The notes beneath the pieces are model-generated. The model worked only from the letters and a program-made list of their open reading frames with translations. It ran no database searches and had not been told where the DNA came from. Of a stretch of DNA of 64,000 nt, positions 1,545-16,477 are shown piece by piece. Numbering within the stretch: position 1 is the first letter of the stretch; the number at the start of each line of letters is the position of its first letter. The translations under genes were made by a program, and so were the position numbers. The DNA is from Akkermansiaceae bacterium (GTDB taxonomy: Bacteria; Verrucomicrobiota; Verrucomicrobiia; Verrucomicrobiales; Akkermansiaceae): positions 977,226 through 1,041,225 of the forward strand of contig CP059069.1 of NCBI GenBank assembly GCA_017798145.1, written 5' to 3'.

Positions 1545-3080
1545 ATGATTACAAAAATGTATTCCGCCGCCCTCCGTGGTGTCGATGCGCTTGAGGTCGA
1601 GGTGGAAGTCAACGCCCGCAATTCCGAGAGCCCAGGCGTCATCATCGTCGGCCTGCCGGATGCCGCCGTGCGGGAAAGCTCCCAGCGCGTCACCTCCGCC
1701 ATCACCGCCTCCGCTCTGGAACTCGATCTCGGCGTCAAGACCGTGAACCTCGCCCCCGCCGACCTGAAAAAGGAAGGCCCATCCTTCGACCTGCCCATCG
1801 CCCTGGCCATGGTCGGCGCGAGCGGAACGAAGATCCTCGAAACCGACGCGTTCTGCGTCGTCGGCGAGCTGGGTCTCGATGGAGCGGTTCGCCCTGTGAA
1901 AGGCGTGCTTTCCATCGCCCTGGAAGCGAGGAAACGCGGACGCAAAAGCCTCATCGTCCCGGAGGCGAACGCAGCCGAGGCGGCGGTGATCGAAGGCATC
2001 GATGTCATACCCGTCCGCAGCCTGCGGCAGGCATGGGATTTCATCAGCGGCGAAAAACGCATCCTTCCCTTCAACCTCGACCGCCGCGCGTTTTTCGAAA
2101 GCCACCGCAGCTACCTCGTCGATTTCAACGAGGTCAAAGGCCAGCACCACGTCAAACGCGCCCTCGAGGTCGCTGCCGCCGGGGGCCACAACCTTCTCAT
2201 GGTCGGCCCGCCCGGCACGGGGAAGTCGATGCTCGCGAAACGCCTGCCCACGATCATGCCTGACATGACCGAGGAGGACGCAATCGAGACCACCAAGATC
2301 CACTCCATCGCCGGCACGCTGGATACGAAGAAAGGCTTCCTCACCACCCGCCCCTTCCGCGCCCCGCACCATACCATCTCCGACGCCGGTCTGTTAGGCG
2401 GCGGCACGAACCCCGGCCCCGGCGAGGTCTCTCTGGCTCATCACGGCGTCCTTTTCCTCGACGAGCTCCCCGAGTTCCGCCGGCAGACGCTGGAGGTCTT
2501 GCGGCAGCCGCTGGAAGACGGTCACGTGACGATCAGTCGCGCCGCCGGTTCCCTGACTTTCCCCGCCCGCTTCATGCTCGTCGCGGCGATGAACCCCTGC
2601 CCCTGCGGTTTTTACGGCGACTCAAAGCGCCAGTGCCGCTGCTCCGTCCGCCAGATCGAGAACTACCGCCAGAAGATCAGCGGGCCATTGCTCGACCGCA
2701 TCGACATCCACGTCGAGGTGCCGCTCGTCGATTTCCGCGAACTCACCTCGGACGCCGTCACCGGCGAGTCCTCGGCCGTGATCCGCGAGCGCGTCGCCGC
2801 CGCACGCGGAATCCAAGTGGAGCGTTTCAAGTCCGCAAAGCTCACCACCAACGCCGCGATGGGCGCGAAGCAAGTCCGCGAGTGCTGCAAACTCGACGCC
2901 GAGGGCAGGGGATACCTCGAGCACGCCATGGAGCAGATGAACTTCTCCGCCCGCGCCCACGACCGCATCCTCAAGGTCGCCCGAACCCTCGCCGATCTCG
3001 CTGGGAAGCAAAACATCACAGGGAACGAAATCCTGGAGGCTATCCAGTTCCGCTCGCTCGACCGTCAGTTGTTTGAGTGA
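1545..3080 (+). CDS. comM: ComM/YifB family AAA+ ATPase (Mg-chelatase-like)
   Basis: An intact 511-residue member of the YifB/ComM family; ComM is a hexameric branch-migration helicase used during natural transformation. The N-terminal Lon-like domain starts [20 protein letters not shown], and the ATG at 1545 matches family N-termini. Walker A is [15 protein letters not shown], followed by the [13 protein letters not shown] loop and Walker [10 protein letters not shown]. The cysteine cluster [18 protein letters not shown] and the C-terminal Mg_chelatase_C region, ending SLDRQLFE, are complete. This copy is probably functional. Its 3' end is the source or homologue of five fragments found downstream on the same strand. 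Confidence 0.95.
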
Positions 3081-3099
3081 ATCCAACACACCGAATATC

Positions 3100-3936
3100 A
3101 TGTCTCAAATCTCACTCTTCGAGGAAAAGCAAGTCCGCCGCGCCTGGAATGCGGAGCAGGAGAAATGGCTGTTCGCCATTGTCGATGTCGTAGCCATTCT
3201 GAGCAACAGCTCCAACCCACAAACCTACTGGCGCGTTATGAAAAAGCGCCTCTTGGATGAGGGAAATGAAACCGTTACAGATTGTAACGGTTTGAAAATG
3301 ACCGCCGCCGACGGCAAACAGCGCATGACCGATGTCGCCGATACCGAACAGCTTCTGCGCCTCATCCAGTCCATCCCATCCCCCAAAGCCGAACCCTTCA
3401 AGCGCTGGCTCGCCAAAGTCGGATACGAGCGCCTTGAGGAAATCGAGAACCCTGAACTCGCCGCCAAGCGCACACGCGAAATCTACGAATTAAAGGGTTA
3501 CTCGGAAGAATGGATCGAAAAACGCCTGCGCGGCATCGCCGTCCGCGACGAACTCACCGACGAATGGAAAAAGCGCGGCGTCAAACAAGGCAAGGAATTC
3601 GCCATCCTCACGGCCGAAATCAGCAAAGCCACCTTCGGCATGACCCCATCCGAGTACAAAGAGTTCAAGGCGCTTTCCAACCCCAAGGAAAACCTCCGCG
3701 ACCACATGACCGACCTCGAACTCATCTTCACCATGCTCGGCGAGGCATCCACCACCGAGATCGCCAAGAAACGCAATGCCCTTGGATTCCCGGAAAACAA
3801 AAAGGCTGCGGAAGACGGCGGTTCCGTCGCCGGCAAAGCCCGCAAAGACCTCGAAAAGCAAAGCGGCAAGCGCATTTCCACACGAGAGAACTTCAAGGAA
3901 CCACCCGAATCCCGAAATCGAATCCCCAAAAGCTGA
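3100..3936 (+). CDS. BRO-family / prophage antirepressor-like protein
   Basis: A 278-residue protein of the Bro-N (COG3617) type. The ATG at 3100 is chosen over a TTG overlapping comM; it begins MSQISLFEEKQVRRAW. The Bro-N-like domain at about 8-105 contains WLFAIVDVVAIL and LLRLIQSIPSPKAE. The C-terminal part has the typical LRDHMTDLELIFTMLGE and ARKDLEKQSGK segments. BRO proteins bind DNA and often occur in phages and mobile elements. The gene lies 20 nt after the comM stop and is followed by the first comM fragment. A relic of its start codon region also follows the second fragment, so comM 3' end plus bro seems to be one duplicated unit. Confidence 0.75.
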   Translation: MSQISLFEEKQVRRAWNAEQEKWLFAIVDVVAILSNSSNPQTYWRVMKKRLLDEGNETVTDCNGLKMTAADGKQRMTDVADTEQLLRLIQSIPSPKAEPFKRWLAKVGYERLEEIENPELAAKRTREIYELKGYSEEWIEKRLRGIAVRDELTDEWKKRGVKQGKEFAILTAEISKATFGMTPSEYKEFKALSNPKENLRDHMTDLELIFTMLGEASTTEIAKKRNALGFPENKKAAEDGGSVAGKARKDLEKQSGKRISTRENFKEPPESRNRIPKS

Positions 3937-3942
3937 AATAGC

Positions 3943-4041
3943 CCGCATCCTTCAGACCTCGAGGGAAAGCAGGACATCACCGGCAACGAGATCCTCGAGG
4001 CTATCCAATTCCGCTCCCTCGACCGGCGGCTGTTCGAGTGA
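3943..4041 (+). pseudogene. comM 3'-end fragment A
   Basis: This matches the last ~120 nt of comM with an internal gap: CGCATCCT, then a missing stretch, then the segment encoding [25 protein letters not shown] and a TGA at 4039-4041. Many differences from the intact gene are synonymous (for example CTCGACCGG for CTCGACCGT), so it descends from a diverged comM rather than a recent copy. It has no start codon or ATPase motifs. Confidence 0.85.
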
Positions 4042-5108: not shown

Positions 5109-6176
5109 ATGTCCGAATGCAATTTCACCTCGCGTGCCGATCAGGTTGTTGAGCGGCTGCGCGAGGGCATGCTGGACGGCAGCTGGCGTGGCAGCCTGCC
5201 GGGACGGAGCCGGCTGGCGGGACGATTCGGGGTCAGTCACTCGACCGTCGAGGAGGCGATGCGGCGCCTGGCCAAGGAAGGCTGGTTGGTTTCCGATGGC
5301 CCCGGGCGGCGGCGGCGCATCGTCCTACCCAGTGGCGCGGCAAGGGCACGCACCTTGAGGATCAGGATCCTGCTCTACGAGCGAAAGGACATCGGCGCGC
5401 GCGAGGAGCTCGAAGTGCTGGCTGAACTTGACCGGGCCGGCTTCGCTGTCGGCTTCGCCCAGAAATCACTCCACGACCTAGGGATGGATCCGGGGCGGGT
5501 CGCCCGTTTTGTCGCGAAAACCCAAGCCGATGCGTGGATCGTCTGTGCGGGGAGCAGCGAGGTGCTGGAGTGGTTCAGCCGGCAACCCGTGCCGGCCTTC
5601 GCGCTGTTCGGAGTGAAGTCCGGGTTGCCGATCGCCGGAAGCAGCGCTTGGAGAGACCCTACTGTGGTGGTGCGGCGTCTGGTCGAACTGGGTCATCGCC
5701 GCATCGTTATGCTGACGCGGGAAGAACGCCTGGTTCCGAAGCCCGCGCTTTATGAACAGGGCTTTCTTGACGCCCTGGAAGCCCATGGCATCGTCACCGG
5801 TCCCTACCATCTGCCCTGCTGGGGCAGCACCCCTGAGGAACTGCATCGCTACCTCGACCCGCTCTTCAAGCACACGCCACCAACCGCTTTCATGATCAGC
5901 GAGCCACCACTATTCATTGCGGTTCGCGATCACCTCGCGCAGCGGGGCATCATCGCACCGCGCGATGTGTCCTTGGTCTGCGAGGAAGCGGACGCCGCCC
6001 TGTCGTGGTGCGATCCGGAGGTCGCTTGTTTTGAGTGGGACTTCGCGCCGATCCGGCGGCGGATCCTGCGCTGGGCCAAGCTCGTGGCGCAGGGCAAGGA
6101 CGACCGTCGCCAGACCTTTTCCATAGCGCGGTTCATCGAGGGCGGCACGATCGGACCGGTGCCAGCGGGCAGATGA
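5109..6176 (+). CDS. GntR-type HTH / LacI-type effector domain transcriptional regulator
   Basis: A 355-residue regulator; the ATG at 5109 is used because upstream in-frame codons lack coding character. Residues 5-75 form a winged-helix GntR domain (LREGMLDGSWRG-LPGRSRLAGRFGVS). The remainder is a periplasmic-binding-protein-like domain with the LacI-family segment LVELGHRRIVMLTREER and a conserved FLDALEAHGI helix. Regulators of this arrangement control sugar catabolism in PVC bacteria and Bacteroidetes. It is divergent from the PEP-CTERM gene, separated by 138 nt that probably hold both promoters. The ligand is not deducible. Confidence 0.8.
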   Translation: MSECNFTSRADQVVERLREGMLDGSWRGSLPGRSRLAGRFGVSHSTVEEAMRRLAKEGWLVSDGPGRRRRIVLPSGAARARTLRIRILLYERKDIGAREELEVLAELDRAGFAVGFAQKSLHDLGMDPGRVARFVAKTQADAWIVCAGSSEVLEWFSRQPVPAFALFGVKSGLPIAGSSAWRDPTVVVRRLVELGHRRIVMLTREERLVPKPALYEQGFLDALEAHGIVTGPYHLPCWGSTPEELHRYLDPLFKHTPPTAFMISEPPLFIAVRDHLAQRGIIAPRDVSLVCEEADAALSWCDPEVACFEWDFAPIRRRILRWAKLVAQGKDDRRQTFSIARFIEGGTIGPVPAGR

Positions 6177-6308: not shown

Positions 6309-6401
6309 AACTCCTGCCCTTGTGGTTTCTGCAGGTGTCCAAAGGGATGGTTTCACGGCTCCGTCCGGCAGATCGAGAACCACCGCCAGCTGTTCGATTG
6401 G
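6309..6401 (+). pseudogene. comM 3'-end fragment B
   Basis: The sequence encodes CPCGF...GSVRQIENHRQ, matching the comM cysteine cluster and RQIENYRQ segment, then jumps straight to the last codons (CAGCTGTTCGATTGG for QLFE-stop). The join is at the shared CGCCAG/CGTCAG, so the deletion probably ran between short repeats. The stop codon is lost. Homology continues past the comM end into the bro gene start (see 6429-6461). Confidence 0.85.
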
Positions 6402-6428
6402 AATGAAAACCGGCACCCACGACAGGGC

Positions 6429-6461
6429 ATGTCACAAATCTTCCTGTTTGTGAAAATGAGA
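6429..6461 (+). pseudogene. Relic of the bro gene start
   Basis: The reading MSQIFLFVKM compares with MSQISLFEEK at the start of the BRO-family gene at 3100, and the nucleotides agree at most positions (ATGTCxCAAATCT..CT.TT). It lies 27 nt after comM fragment B, comparable to the 19-nt spacing of the intact pair, so the duplicated unit spans the comM-bro junction. Similarity is lost after about 11 codons. Confidence 0.6.
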
Positions 6462-6513
6462 GAGAAGAAAGACAGTCCCTCTGGTCACCGTTCAAGAACC
6501 AGCGCTTCGGATC

Positions 6514-8862
6514 ATGAAAACCATACCCACCAAGCATCTCCTCTCCAGCCGCCTGCTTCTGGCTGCCATCTCCAGCCTGCTCCTGACCGGCGCCCACGCC
6601 AGGACATGGACCAGTTCCGACGGAGCCAAGACCTTCGAGGGCGAACTCAAGTCCTACGACCCCAGGATCGGATTGGTCACGGTGGCCTTGTCCAACGGCA
6701 CGAGCATGCATTTCGAGCAGGACAAGCTGGCCGCTGCGGATATCGCCTACCTCAAGGAATACCTTGAGGAAAAACGCACCATAGGGGTGCCGACATCGGT
6801 GCCCACCCCGGCGGGCGCATCGGATCCCAAGGATCTCCCGGATGTCTGGCCTCCCGCGGACGAGAGTCCCTATAAGGGCAAGAGACTAAAGTCCGGCTTT
6901 GCGTCCGATTTGAAATCACTCAAGGAGGAAATCTCCCGCGCGCTGCCCAAGGTCGGCGACAGTGCGGTGGCGGATCTTGAAAATGCGGCGAAAGTGCTCG
7001 CCGAAGCATCGGCCACGGCGGATGCCGCGCAAAAGGGTCTCGGCCAGATCGCAGCCGCGAAAGGCTTGATCGACCACGCGAATGGCAAGTGGATCGGCGG
7101 CGCGAAGAAGGATATCGCAGCGGCTCAGGCGAACCTGAAGAATGCCAAAACCGCGGCGGAAAAGAAAGCCGCCGAAAACCAACTCGAGGCCGCCGAGAAA
7201 AACCTCGCCGCGGGCGAGGCCGCCCTCAAGGAGCGCACGGCTCTCTATGAAAAAGCCAAGGCCGACGAGCCATCCCTCAAGAAAGCCCACGAAAAGGCCC
7301 AAGCCGAACTGGCCAAGGCCAAGGCCGACGAGACCGCCGCCGCCAAAAGCCTCATGGGATCGATGGGTTCCTTCCTCGACAACGACACGCTCGACGGGAA
7401 ACTCGCCAAGGCCTTCGTTCTCACCGCAGCCACCCCGGATGGGCTCGCCGATTTCGCCGAGCAAAGCGCCGACAACGCCGAGGCGGTCGGGCAGCTGCTG
7501 GCCGACGAGGCCTTGATGAAGGAGATGATGGAGGCCGGTGGCGCCCGCTTCGGAAAGTTCGGCGAGGCGATGAAAATTTTCACCGTCATCCGGAAGGTCA
7601 GCCCGCAGGCGAAGGACGGGGTTTTGCGCCGCCTCGCGCTGGCCACCAGCCTTGAGCACGCCAACCCGGTCACCCAGAAAAACAGCCCCAACGTGAAGGA
7701 CCAATCCTCCCACATCCACCCGGTGAAGCGTTATCTGCATTTCGAAAAAGCCTTCCTGGGCGGCGAACTGGATCCCGCTTTCAAAAGTCTCACCACATGG
7801 GAGATGCGCTTTGTCGCCAACGCCGAGGACCCCGACGAAATCCTCGCATGGGGGCGTGAAATGCTCCGCACCTACCGCCCGGACCACATATACGGCGCGG
7901 ACTACGGCTGGCGCTATGTTTCCAGCGTGAAGAGCGAGGTGCCCTACGGTTCGCAGAACGTGCAGTATGACGACCCCCAGAATCACCATATGCAGAACAT
8001 CATCCGCAACGGCGGGGTCTGCGGACGCCGCGCGTTCTTCGGGCGTTTCATCCTGCGTTCCTTCGGGATCCCGACATGGGGAGTGACGCAGAAAGCCCAC
8101 GCCGCCCTCAGCCACTGGACGCCGAAAGGCTGGGTGGTCAATCTCGGCGCCGGTTTCCCCCACAGTTGGTGGGACAAGGACGATGTGCCTCTCAGCGGAT
8201 CCGAGTTCCAGCTGGAGACCCAGGCGCGCGCCCACAAGGAGGACTATATGAAAATCGTGCGCGCGGAAATGGTCAGCCGCATTCTCGGCGAGCCGGCCTA
8301 CAGCGAACGCCGCAAGGTCGATGGCGGGTTCTGGAGCCGTGTCGCGCTTTACCAGTCCCGCACCCTCGCCGCAAACGCCGCCGACCTCGGCGCGCTCGGT
8401 GAGGAGCTCGCCGAAGCCAACGAGAAGGAGCAGAAAATCCAATCGGAGGCGGCCGCCAAGGCAGATCGTGAAATCCGCGAGGAAGGCGGCATCGTCACCA
8501 TCCCGTCCGTCGCCCACGAAACGACATCCGGAAAATCGGCCTCGATGCGCTCGTTCTCCGGCGGCATGCAGATCCACGCCTTCGGTGGTTTCAAAACCGA
8601 GTACAAGGTCAAAGCACCTAGATCAGGGAATTACCTGCTGACAGCGAAGGTCGCCACCGCCCAGACCGGCCAGAAATTCCTCTTCGCCGTGAATGACGAA
8701 AGTCCTGTGGAACAACCCGTGCCCTACACCATAGGCCTCTGGCAAACCACAGAGCCGATCCCGGTCACCCTGAAAAGCGGATCGAACACCCTCCAGTTCG
8801 AAATCGCCCAGGGCAGCCGCGGCGTCACGATCAAGGAATTCATCCTCACCCCGGCGGAGTGA
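6514..8862 (+). CDS. Secreted SHD1-domain protein with transglutaminase-like core
   Basis: A 782-residue protein. The signal peptide (residues 1-29, ending AHA-R) is followed by an SHD1 domain (RTWTSSDGAKTFEGELKSYD), common in PVC-group exported proteins. Residues ~140-285 form a long Ala/Lys/Glu-rich coiled coil. The central part resembles a transglutaminase/protease fold: NGGVCGRRAFF with C503, then His at 529 and 534 in KAHAALSHW, followed by WVVNLGAGF. The C-terminal ~100 residues look like a carbohydrate-binding beta-sandwich (KAPRSGNYLLTAKVA). The role is unknown; protein processing or cross-linking at the cell surface is possible. It sits between comM fragments B and C. Confidence 0.65.
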   Translation: MKTIPTKHLLSSRLLLAAISSLLLTGAHARTWTSSDGAKTFEGELKSYDPRIGLVTVALSNGTSMHFEQDKLAAADIAYLKEYLEEKRTIGVPTSVPTPAGASDPKDLPDVWPPADESPYKGKRLKSGFASDLKSLKEEISRALPKVGDSAVADLENAAKVLAEASATADAAQKGLGQIAAAKGLIDHANGKWIGGAKKDIAAAQANLKNAKTAAEKKAAENQLEAAEKNLAAGEAALKERTALYEKAKADEPSLKKAHEKAQAELAKAKADETAAAKSLMGSMGSFLDNDTLDGKLAKAFVLTAATPDGLADFAEQSADNAEAVGQLLADEALMKEMMEAGGARFGKFGEAMKIFTVIRKVSPQAKDGVLRRLALATSLEHANPVTQKNSPNVKDQSSHIHPVKRYLHFEKAFLGGELDPAFKSLTTWEMRFVANAEDPDEILAWGREMLRTYRPDHIYGADYGWRYVSSVKSEVPYGSQNVQYDDPQNHHMQNIIRNGGVCGRRAFFGRFILRSFGIPTWGVTQKAHAALSHWTPKGWVVNLGAGFPHSWWDKDDVPLSGSEFQLETQARAHKEDYMKIVRAEMVSRILGEPAYSERRKVDGGFWSRVALYQSRTLAANAADLGALGEELAEANEKEQKIQSEAAAKADREIREEGGIVTIPSVAHETTSGKSASMRSFSGGMQIHAFGGFKTEYKVKAPRSGNYLLTAKVATAQTGQKFLFAVNDESPVEQPVPYTIGLWQTTEPIPVTLKSGSNTLQFEIAQGSRGVTIKEFILTPAE

Positions 8863-8947: not shown

Positions 8948-9445
8948 ATGATGGATGCTTGTATGACGGAATGGATCACGTTTTTGGAGATGGTGGAGCG
9001 GCCGGTGAATTTTCCGACGGTGCCTGAGGATTTCCAGATCGCCCTCGCGGAAAAAAATGGGCGGATCAACCTGGACTGGTATCGAAGGGTGGGCGCGCGG
9101 TGGGCTTGGACGGATCGCCTGAAGTGGTCGGAGGAGGAGTGGCGCGGGTATGTGGAATCGGAGAATCTGGAGACATGGATCGCGAGTTTCCAGGGGCAGG
9201 ATTGCGGGTATTTCGAGCTCTCGAGACAGGACGAGGGAGTCCGGATCGCGCTGTTGGGATTGGCTCCGGAATCCATCGGAAAGGGTCTGGGCGGGTCTTT
9301 GCTATCGAAGGCTTTGGAGCGCGCATGGACGGAGGGAATCGGACGGGTGTTTCTCGACACCTGCTCGAAAGATCATCCCAACGCATTGCCGACTTATCTT
9401 CGGAACGGCTTCCGGATCATCCGGACGGAATACGGGAGCCGATGA
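8948..9445 (+). CDS. GNAT-family N-acetyltransferase
   Basis: A 165-residue protein. GAGGAG about 8 nt upstream supports the ATG at 8948, with alternatives at 8951 and 8963. The acetyl-CoA motif A is IALLGLAPESIGKGLGGSLL (R/Q-x-x-G-x-G/A form), followed by the typical VFLDTCSKDHPNALPTYLRN segment that pairs a late beta strand with the product-side helix. The substrate is unknown. comM fragment C starts roughly 20 nt after the stop, so the gene end and the comM remnant are nearly abutting. Confidence 0.85.
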   Translation: MMDACMTEWITFLEMVERPVNFPTVPEDFQIALAEKNGRINLDWYRRVGARWAWTDRLKWSEEEWRGYVESENLETWIASFQGQDCGYFELSRQDEGVRIALLGLAPESIGKGLGGSLLSKALERAWTEGIGRVFLDTCSKDHPNALPTYLRNGFRIIRTEYGSR

Positions 9446-9468
9446 GCTCCATGCCGGTGTCTGCGAAA

Positions 9469-9694
9469 ATGGAGCCCAGACCCGTGCGGGTTTTACGGAG
9501 ACGGGTAGAGGCAGTGCCGCTGCTCCGTCCGGCAAATCGAGAACTACCGCCAGAAAATCAGCGGATCCCTGCCCGACCGAATTCTCAGGGTCTCCCGCAC
9601 CTCGACCGACCTCGCCGGAAAGGAAAACATCACCGGTAACGAAGTGCTTGAGGCGATCCAGTTCCGCTCGCTCGACCGGCAGCTCTTCGAGTGA
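9469..9694 (+). pseudogene. comM 3'-end fragment C
   Basis: The fragment encodes PCGFYGD, an in-frame TAG, then [25 protein letters not shown] joined directly to [37 protein letters not shown] and TGA. The join matches a deletion between the two GACCGCATC copies present in intact comM (near 2695 and 2965), as expected for loss between short direct repeats. The nearest frame has one stop, so it is a pseudogene. Synonymous differences again show a diverged source. Confidence 0.9.
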
Positions 9695-9765
9695 CAAGTA
9701 ACTGCTCCCAGATCACGCATCACATTTCTATGGCTACCTCATCAAGCCACAGGAGGGTCACTGCA

Positions 9766-15365: not shown

Positions 15366-15391
15366 GGAAATCGAAGTGGTGAAACTCATCA

Positions 15392-15892
15392 TTTCCCCGC
15401 CCGCTTCATGATCGTCACGGCGATGAACCTACACCCGTGCGGTTTTTACGGGGACTCGAAAAGGCAGTGCCGCTGCTCCGTCCGGCAGATCGAAAACCAT
15501 CGCCAGAAAATCATCGGCCCGCTGCTGGATCGCATAGACATCCAGGTCGAGGTGCCGCTCGTCGATTTCCTCGAACTCACCTCCGATGCCGTCACCGGTG
15601 AATCATCGGCAGTGATCCGCGAGAGATTCGCCGCCGCGCGCCACATCAAGGTGCAGCGTTTCAAATCCGCGAAACTCACCACCAACGCAGCGATGGGCGC
15701 GAAACAGGATCGCGAATGCTGCCAGCTCGACGCCGAATCACGCGGCTACCTCGAACACGCCATGGAGCAGATGAACTTCTCCGCCCGCGACCGCATACTA
15801 AAAGTTTCCCGAACCCTCACCGATCTCGCGGGGAAGCAATACATCACCGGCAACGAGGTGTTCGAAGCGATCCGGTTCCGGTCACCCGATAG
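15392..15892 (+). pseudogene. comM 3'-end fragment D (largest)
   Basis: This covers about the last 165 codons of comM with the frame open from ATG 15408, starting at the equivalent of FPARFML. By eye there are about 22 substitutions plus a two-residue loss (AH of ARAHDRI) over roughly 160 aligned residues, with many additional synonymous changes. The Walker A and B motifs lie upstream and are missing, so it cannot be an active ATPase. The last four codons are replaced by an ISAs1-transposase remnant joined after SPDRQ. The open frame runs on to 15986 only because of this fusion. Confidence 0.9.
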
Positions 15893-16422
15893 ACAGGGCA
15901 ACCAGGGCACGCTGCACGATGGTGCGGGTCTCTCTTTTCGGACGGAGGGGCGCTGGATTGGATCGAGGCCGGGCGCGGTGAGGTGACCCGCCATGCCGGG
16001 ACCGATGCAGGCCATGGCCGTGCCGAGGAACGCAGGATCCGCGTGACGAATCATCTCGGTTGGATCGCCCCGAAAGGGCGGATCATGTGGGTGGGGATCT
16101 GCAGAGTGATGTGTGTGGGAAGCGTCCGGCACCTGCCGGGTGAGGAGGCTGTCAGGGCGAGGCGCCACTGGCTGAGCAGCCTGCCACCCGAGGCAACGCG
16201 GTTGCTCGCGCTCGTGCGCGGATATTTGGCGATCGAAAACCGCTGCCACTGGGTGATGACGTGATGTTCAACGAGAACCAGTCGCGCGGCCGCAGCGGGC
16301 ATGCGGCGAAGAACATGTCGCTGCTGCGCCGTCTGGGCCACAACCTCCTGCAAACAAGCGGCGAACTTGCGGGGAAATCGGATCGTTCAAAGCGTCTAGC
16401 CGCCTTCCTCGGAACAACCTGA
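15893..16422 (+). mobile_element. ISAs1-family transposase remnant (C-terminal half, frameshifted)
   Basis: Pieces in successive frames match ISAs1/H-repeat transposases: GNQGTLHDG (KGNQ-x-x-L motif) in the frame of comM fragment D; then LDWIEAGRGEVTRHAGTD and AGHGRAEERRIRVTNHLGW; WLSSLPPEATRLLALVRG and YLAIENRCHWV; then, after a one-base loss near 16255-16262, MFNENQSRGRSGHAAKNMS and LLRRLGHNLL up to a TGA at 16420. The N-terminal half and terminal inverted repeats are not seen. It directly interrupts the end of comM fragment D and is followed 15 nt later by fragment E. Confidence 0.8.
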
Positions 16423-16437
16423 ATGCGGTAGCCCTGG

Positions 16438-16477
16438 CATCCAGTTCCGCTCGCTGGACAGGCGGTTGTTGGAGTGA
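16438..16477 (+). pseudogene. comM 3'-end fragment E (last codons only)
   Basis: The sequence encodes [12 protein letters not shown] and TGA, matching the final 12 codons of comM ([12 protein letters not shown]). It overlaps the region present in fragment D (FRSPDRQ), so it is not simply the displaced end of D. It is the most decayed and most distal of the series. Confidence 0.75.

Follow-up and report, generated by a model that had tools for sequence, protein, structure and literature searches.

What leaves the end of one gene and the beginning of the next, in their native order, a short way behind the place where both still stand intact? The question arises in the window, by which we mean the whole 64,000-nucleotide stretch of an Akkermansiaceae bacterium analyzed here (contig CP059069.1), and all window features named below lie on its forward strand. 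Intact comM (1545–3080; TIGR00368 E 1.1e-182, 608 bits against a cut-off of 362) encodes a YifB-family Mg chelatase-like AAA ATPase with the Pfam domains Mg_chelatase, ChlI, and Mg_chelatase_C; we number its codons from the ATT at 1548 as codon 1, the ATG being at 1545. The gene bro (3100–3936) begins 19 nt after it. An initial annotation proposed that a piece of DNA farther right, which we call fragment B, repeats the comM 3' end and the bro start as one unit, and that this unit is mobile or recombining with bro as its first gene.

A decayed copy of the comM end and bro start

Fragment B (6309–6456) corresponds, in decayed form, to comM codons 349–375, the last comM codons, the spacer, and the start of bro. 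Its comM part (6309–6400 by alignment, with 6309–6389 also recovered by blastn) is homologous to comM as had been read from the sequence, but the homology is broken, codons 376 to about 504 being absent, and the comM stop is mutated. The decayed bro start (6428–6456) is identical to 3099–3127 at 22 of 29 nt. The resemblance of its MSQIFLFVKM to the Bro N-terminus is genuine, but only about nine bro codons are left.

Could so short a similarity be accidental? The bro piece is only 29 nt long and weak when taken alone, because a 36-nt query from the bro start matches one other place in the window, at 47.4 kb, equally well. Shuffle tests nevertheless refute this explanation, to which we give practically no credence. 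Aligning 3081–3140 with 6402–6465 gives a score of 15, against a mean of 6.9 and a maximum of 12 in 1000 dinucleotide shuffles, none of which reached 15. The comM end, spacer, and bro start together score 18.5, and the comM part (2592–2672 against 6309–6389) scores 40, each with 0 of 1000 shuffles as high; a fourth test gave 0 of 300. A control stretch (9694–9760) did no better than its shuffles, 744 of 1000 reaching its score. The order and spacing of the pieces are correct as well, and related genomes carry matching junctions: when comM–bro adjacency was sought in other genomes, a closely similar succession of comM stop, spacer, and bro start appeared in G332 and G307, and a decayed one behind intact comM in G331. 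The identification of the bro start is convincing because it is placed right behind a comM end and because relatives share this junction, and the proposal that comM 3' end and bro start form the repeated unit is therefore borne out.

Fragment B is not alone. By blastn, the 13.4 kb behind intact comM hold five stretches of comM 3' sequence, which share one strand. Directly behind bro lies a remnant of codons 478–511 (3941–4041; 79.4% identity in blastn, junction read), followed by fragment B and then by a remnant (9481–9694; 82–83%) that consists of two pieces, codons 351–385 joined to 471–511 by an internal deletion. These three stretches (the second as 6309–6389) were also found among the repeat families of the window. 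Farther right are a nearly whole 3' remnant, codons 337–505 (15392–15889; 82.5% over 504 nt), and the last 13 comM codons (16439–16477; 87% over 39 nt), where the array ends; these last two could be parts of a single remnant separated by other DNA. The DNA between them (15890–16438) is decayed and looks transposase-like by eye only. Elsewhere in this one-contig genome, a comM search listed just two weak matches (E 0.12 and 0.26), which fall in a different region of the protein. The unit repeated in the array is comM coding sequence; an integron cassette array would be recognized by an IntI integrase and attC sites. Candidate cargo genes lie among the remnants: a GntR/Peripla_BP_3 regulator, so assigned by Pfam, to the left of fragment B (5109–6176), and a GNAT acetyltransferase (8948–9445; PF00583 E 1.9e-10). 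In G013, a comM fragment likewise has on its left a regulator 47% identical to the former.

Within the genus, comM 3' sequence was matched in 64 of 73 genomes, and at least twice in 29 of the 73, a count that takes in split genes and contig breaks. In a sample of the family, 18 of the 43 genomes from this genus had at least two matches, vs 7 of 112 from other genera (p 5e-7); the query was the window's own comM, which makes decayed fragments harder to detect in distant genera. The 112 include genus g13, with 0 of 40. Separately, comM-like 3' ends were seen in 5 viral contigs and 21 phage records.

Insertion sites in comM and their probable traces in the window

In related Akkermansiaceae, elements that encode a large serine recombinase (LSR) insert into comM, at places near codons 320 and 349. 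Site B, at codon 320 in the motif QPLEDG (2505–2521 in the window), is where nine junctions in relatives break when read directly (L043 twice, L045, L022, L051, L073, L078, L079, and L089). Site A, at codons 349–354 in the motif NPCPCG (2592–2608), is defined by edge counts and by pairs of genomes with empty and occupied sites, whose comM halves overlap by 18 bp (G001/G012), 17 bp (G280/G127), and 5 bp (G038/G035).

These pairs show what an occupied site looks like. G001 has an intact comM and thus an empty site. One G012 contig, with which its comM–bro locus aligns over 6.8 kb at 90.6%, runs through the comM 5' half into LSR domains (PF07508 and PF13408; L054, a partial gene at the contig end); the other, aligned with G001 from comM onwards at 82.8%, carries the comM 3' half, with some 16 nt left of the bro start, and then DNA common to G001. 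The 18-bp overlap covers codons 348–354. These contigs, separate in a draft genome, appear to be the two ends of one element. The comM halves lie about 80 kb apart in the one-contig genome of G127, and about 39 kb apart in G035, where a 572-aa LSR (L060; PF00239 and PF07508) stands at the left end; in G008, a 587-aa LSR starts beside a comM 3' half at codon 318. A split comM with both halves matching an empty-site relative was thus found in G012, G035, and G127, and an integrase with Resolvase/Recombinase domains in G012 and G035. Inverted repeats at the element ends were scored against 2000 shuffles, of which 2 reached the score in G012, 45 in G127, and 25 in G035; the latter two are weak, and the G012 value was obtained after moving the stretch compared, an initial stretch farther right having given 818. 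Insertion at comM evidently repeats, because the insertion in G127 stands in front of further comM fragments.

The edges of comM fragments point to the same sites. Among 68 free edges in 32 genomes, located by alignment in loci chosen for holding comM fragments, 10 fall at codons 318–324, 21 at codons 331–353, and 5 at codons 379–384; the other 32 fall at none of these three sites. Before counting, 12 rows were set aside, 5 of them at the edge of a contig or locus and 7 in loci not on the genome list, and for one query the codon numbers were offset by 13. Alignment edges may overrun the true break: L041:8193 and L075, both among the 10 edges at codons 318–324 by alignment, are site A by reading, and L073 is site B. 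Codons 380–384 may be a third insertion site, as seen at L074:7407–7787, L079:6513–6893, L080:3719–4102, L052:8733–8993, and L056:7944.

How much of this is still visible in the window? Fragment B starts at the counterpart of base 2592, in codon 349, which is also the first base of the G280/G127 overlap. Immediately to the left of the 9481–9694 remnant, 9444–9473 resembles the arm of a site-A element, as an attR scar would: compared with five site-A arms from relatives, its score was reached by 0, 0, 1, 4, and 124 of 2000 shuffles, and the best of these arms, from G012, matches it better than any of 4554 other places in the window. In the same way, 15373–15391, at the left edge of the nearly whole remnant, resembles a site-B arm; 0, 0, 7, and 10 of 2000 shuffles reached the score of four relative arms, and the best, L043:14905, matches here better than at any of 5316 other places. 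Compared with five site-A arms, the DNA to the left of fragment B gave scores that 63 to 1606 of 2000 shuffles reached, and no arm was recognized there; arms differ between elements. No PF07508 match was found in the genome of the window, whereas 3 of 14 control genomes have one, and on this result the array is better described as scars than as a member of the LSR elements.

The flanks of the window were compared with nine relatives, several of them represented by short loci, and the window's own empty site was not recovered in this comparison. In eight relatives only comM and its copies align, together with the bro start in G331; in the ninth, G014, a stretch of a 782-aa ORF also aligns, inverted.

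Small genes accompany some of these junctions. A 72-aa ORF with four cysteines, zinc-finger-like, occurs at six places in 39 genomes when pieces are joined (L041:1894–2109, 6349–6571, and 8086–8280; L055:7765–7971; L099:2093–2302; L047:7224–7431). At five of them a comM 3' fragment clearly adjoins the ORF; at the sixth, in G006, the adjoining fragment is very weak. At the site-A scars of G014, G012, and G032 the ORF begins inside the arm. We considered it as an HNH-type homing endonuclease and set the idea aside, the ORF being short and without a Pfam family, and element ends and LSR genes explaining the junction better. A 115-aa protein with a weak PDC-M05A match lies behind a comM 3' end in G014 (L041:3729–4700), adjoining what by eye is a possible nucleotidyltransferase gene, and a similar protein, again by eye, lies behind intact comM in G016 (L031:7378–7725).

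Origin of the displaced comM ends

Taken together, these observations suggest that fragment B is probably the decayed scar of an LSR-element insertion into comM. An LSR-bearing element would have inserted into comM at codon 349, displacing to the right the comM 3' half together with the bro that followed it at that time. Later recombination between comM copies, unequal or transformation-borne, would have restored an intact comM and bro on the left and deleted the integrase along with most of the element, while the right end of the element and the displaced comM end stayed in place; the window would have passed through several rounds of this kind, involving two insertion sites. Supporting this explanation are the empty and occupied pairs, the edge peaks, the start of fragment B at codon 349, the two arms in the window, the repetition of insertion, and the absence of any LSR domain match in this genome. 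We infer the manner in which comM was restored each time and, for fragment B with its unrecognizable arm, the LSR insertion itself. Against the explanation stand the restoring step, which was seen in no genome, and the fact that precise excision would leave no fragment. The missing arm of fragment B, the weak inverted arms of G127 and G035, the 32 of 68 edges at none of the three sites, and the separate contigs of G012 count against it too, as do the junctions between bro and comM ends at several codons, which LSR sites do not explain.

The relationships among fragments bear on the same question. For 21 fragments the intact comM of their own genome was in the set compared. The nearest comM sequence came from the same genome for 15 of them, and for 10 of the 15 it was the intact copy (one by a tie). 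The other six are nearer the comM of another genome (G021, G319 twice, G257, one of the two in G018, and the 15392 remnant of the window), which also weighs against insertion and local restoration, as does a clearly foreign comM fragment in G225; the window remnant is 82.6% identical to its own comM, 83.0% to that of G257, and 83.5% to a fragment of G332. The 15 of 21 fit a second explanation as well, in which all the fragments come from simple tandem duplication or from illegitimate recombination at comM, such as a one-sided exchange during natural transformation, and no integrase acted in this genome. The variable junctions behind bro and the lack of an LSR domain also agree with duplication, but it accounts neither for edge peaks at two sites and arms at two scars in the window nor for the empty and occupied pairs with LSR genes in relatives, and we regard it as improbable. 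Short pieces of the comM 5' end were also observed, some near intact comM (L045:12107–12199, L072:1882–2025, L076:11261–11779, L092:5222–5425, and L028:9158–9262).

A third explanation puts bro first: a unit of bro and a short leader would move on its own, enter behind comM, and leave a second comM 3' end behind itself, fragment B being an old copy. The gene encodes a 278-aa protein with a Bro-N domain (PF02498 E 5.1e-11, 43.5 bits against a cut-off of 25.6). Judged by its similarity to the PADLOC profile PDC-S13 (E 3.8e-127; residues 2–272 on profile positions 5–273 of 286, nearly full length), it is a candidate member of this candidate phage-defense family. Domain profile searches found no recombinase domain in it, which counts against a unit that moves on its own. 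After merging pieces of one gene by hand and placing bro against comM positions, we counted 37 bro places in the 73 genomes of the genus, 9 of them within 35 bp behind a comM end, vs 68 edges in 32 genomes, so that most comM fragments are without bro. Among the best 80 of 569 bro relatives, the nearest in other species, just 1 had comM within the fetched DNA (at most 6 kb on each side). The left edge of fragment B at an LSR site also speaks against movement led by bro.

What favors it is a lineage of bro that keeps company with comM. In a tree of 25 bro proteins, the comM-linked bro of G000, G014, G332, G307, and G225 (five genomes in two genera, two of the proteins partial) form one clade with support of 0.995, apart from five other bro of the genus; those of G323 and of G319 C309 are a second, distant lineage. 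In G225, which belongs to another genus, bro is 84% identical to that of the window, against 72.7% for comM. Behind this bro stands a native comM end, 90.6% identical to the comM of G225 and 75% to that of G000. The comM end behind bro begins near codons 430, 452–455, 473, and 472–478 in different genomes; as in G225, such ends follow bro in the window, G014, G273, and G324, with at least three different codons overall. LSR insertion alone is insufficient to produce these second comM ends, and bro-linked transfer by comM homology would explain them. For these reasons (the clade, the G225 identities, and the native comM end) a moving unit linked to bro keeps some plausibility, and bro may be more than a bystander. 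As a separate observation, bro ends about 2 to 22 nt from a truncated comM 3' end at several loci (window 3936–3941, L041:3464, L093 near 6310, L091 near 3340, and L203 near 7540).

A pattern like that of comM and bro occurs at another gene in another lineage: on a Pontiellaceae contig (L127:1–2433), the 3' end of the gene upstream of bro is repeated right behind bro, over 117 nt at 74%. This too favors a unit led by bro, but in other species bro is accompanied by repeats only somewhat more often than control ORFs are. A repeat lies just behind the stop of 8 of 73 bro genes vs 12 of 400 control ORFs from the same loci (p 0.006), or 6 of 73 vs 8 of 400 in a translated version whose filter lost L127. 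With several of these repeats intergenic, we do not adopt bro as a general end-duplicating mobile gene and keep the idea as a lead. All told, movement of a bro-led unit by itself seems unlikely as the source of fragment B. The initial annotation was thus right to suspect mobile DNA, the likely cause, but bro at the head of the unit is unsupported as stated, because the comM end and bro start of G012 resemble a displaced flank and most comM fragments lack bro.

comM as a recurrent target of mobile DNA

The protein ComM helps bacteria take in DNA and serves natural transformation. Because LSR elements often land in comM-family genes, the LSR scar explanation that we prefer can be read as part of a conflict between mobile DNA and the host's cleaning of its genome. 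The row of scars behind intact comM would then record a host lineage that regained comM several times while keeping parts of its invaders, making the conflict countable over time; it would also provide candidate LSR insertion sites and a possible route by which defense-type genes such as bro gather behind comM.

A bolder and rather doubtful reading is that comM is a gene-capture locus, in which an intact comM and a displaced 3' end act as homology arms flanking the genes between them, and cargo passes from cell to cell without an integrase. In its favor are the two-genus clade of comM-linked bro, the foreign comM 3' end found in G225, and the repeated rounds of insertion. That foreign end, L203:4515–5009, is 62% like the comM of G225 and 81% like a G014 fragment. 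In genus g16, both it and L204:6437–7015 were seen to be nearer the comM of the window's genus than the intact comM of their own, and by these similarities such 3' fragments seem to move between genera. If capture is real, cargo such as bro, regulators, and candidate defense genes could enter any intact comM by ordinary recombination, comM would be somewhat integron-like but by homology, and bro would be a specialized passenger lineage.

The targeting of comM-family genes by LSRs is already published; our literature search found no multi-scar array behind a restored comM and no comM-linked bro. The AbaR islands of Acinetobacter baumannii sit in comM, a likeness to the elements described here; a Tn7-like/AbaR insertion would be marked by tni-type transposition genes and a short target duplication. 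Mobile elements inserted in competence genes including comM are also known from proteobacterial examples (PMC4774983). The available portion of that work likewise presents comM as a recurrent insertion site and sets mobile elements against transformation, but its cases are proteobacterial and carry an integrase, and it describes disruption and not restoration with scars. Prophage sr1WO of Wolbachia sits in the magnesium chelatase gene of its host (PMC9203015); the likeness is integration by an LSR that leaves parts of the gene on either side, and a row of older gene ends, which the accessible part of that report does not describe, is the difference. LSRs that target magnesium chelatase/comM-family genes have been reported as well (PMC10083194). 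In the portion of that study at hand, the gene is the target of an inserted element, whereas in the window, where no integrase was found, several displaced 3' ends stand behind a restored gene.
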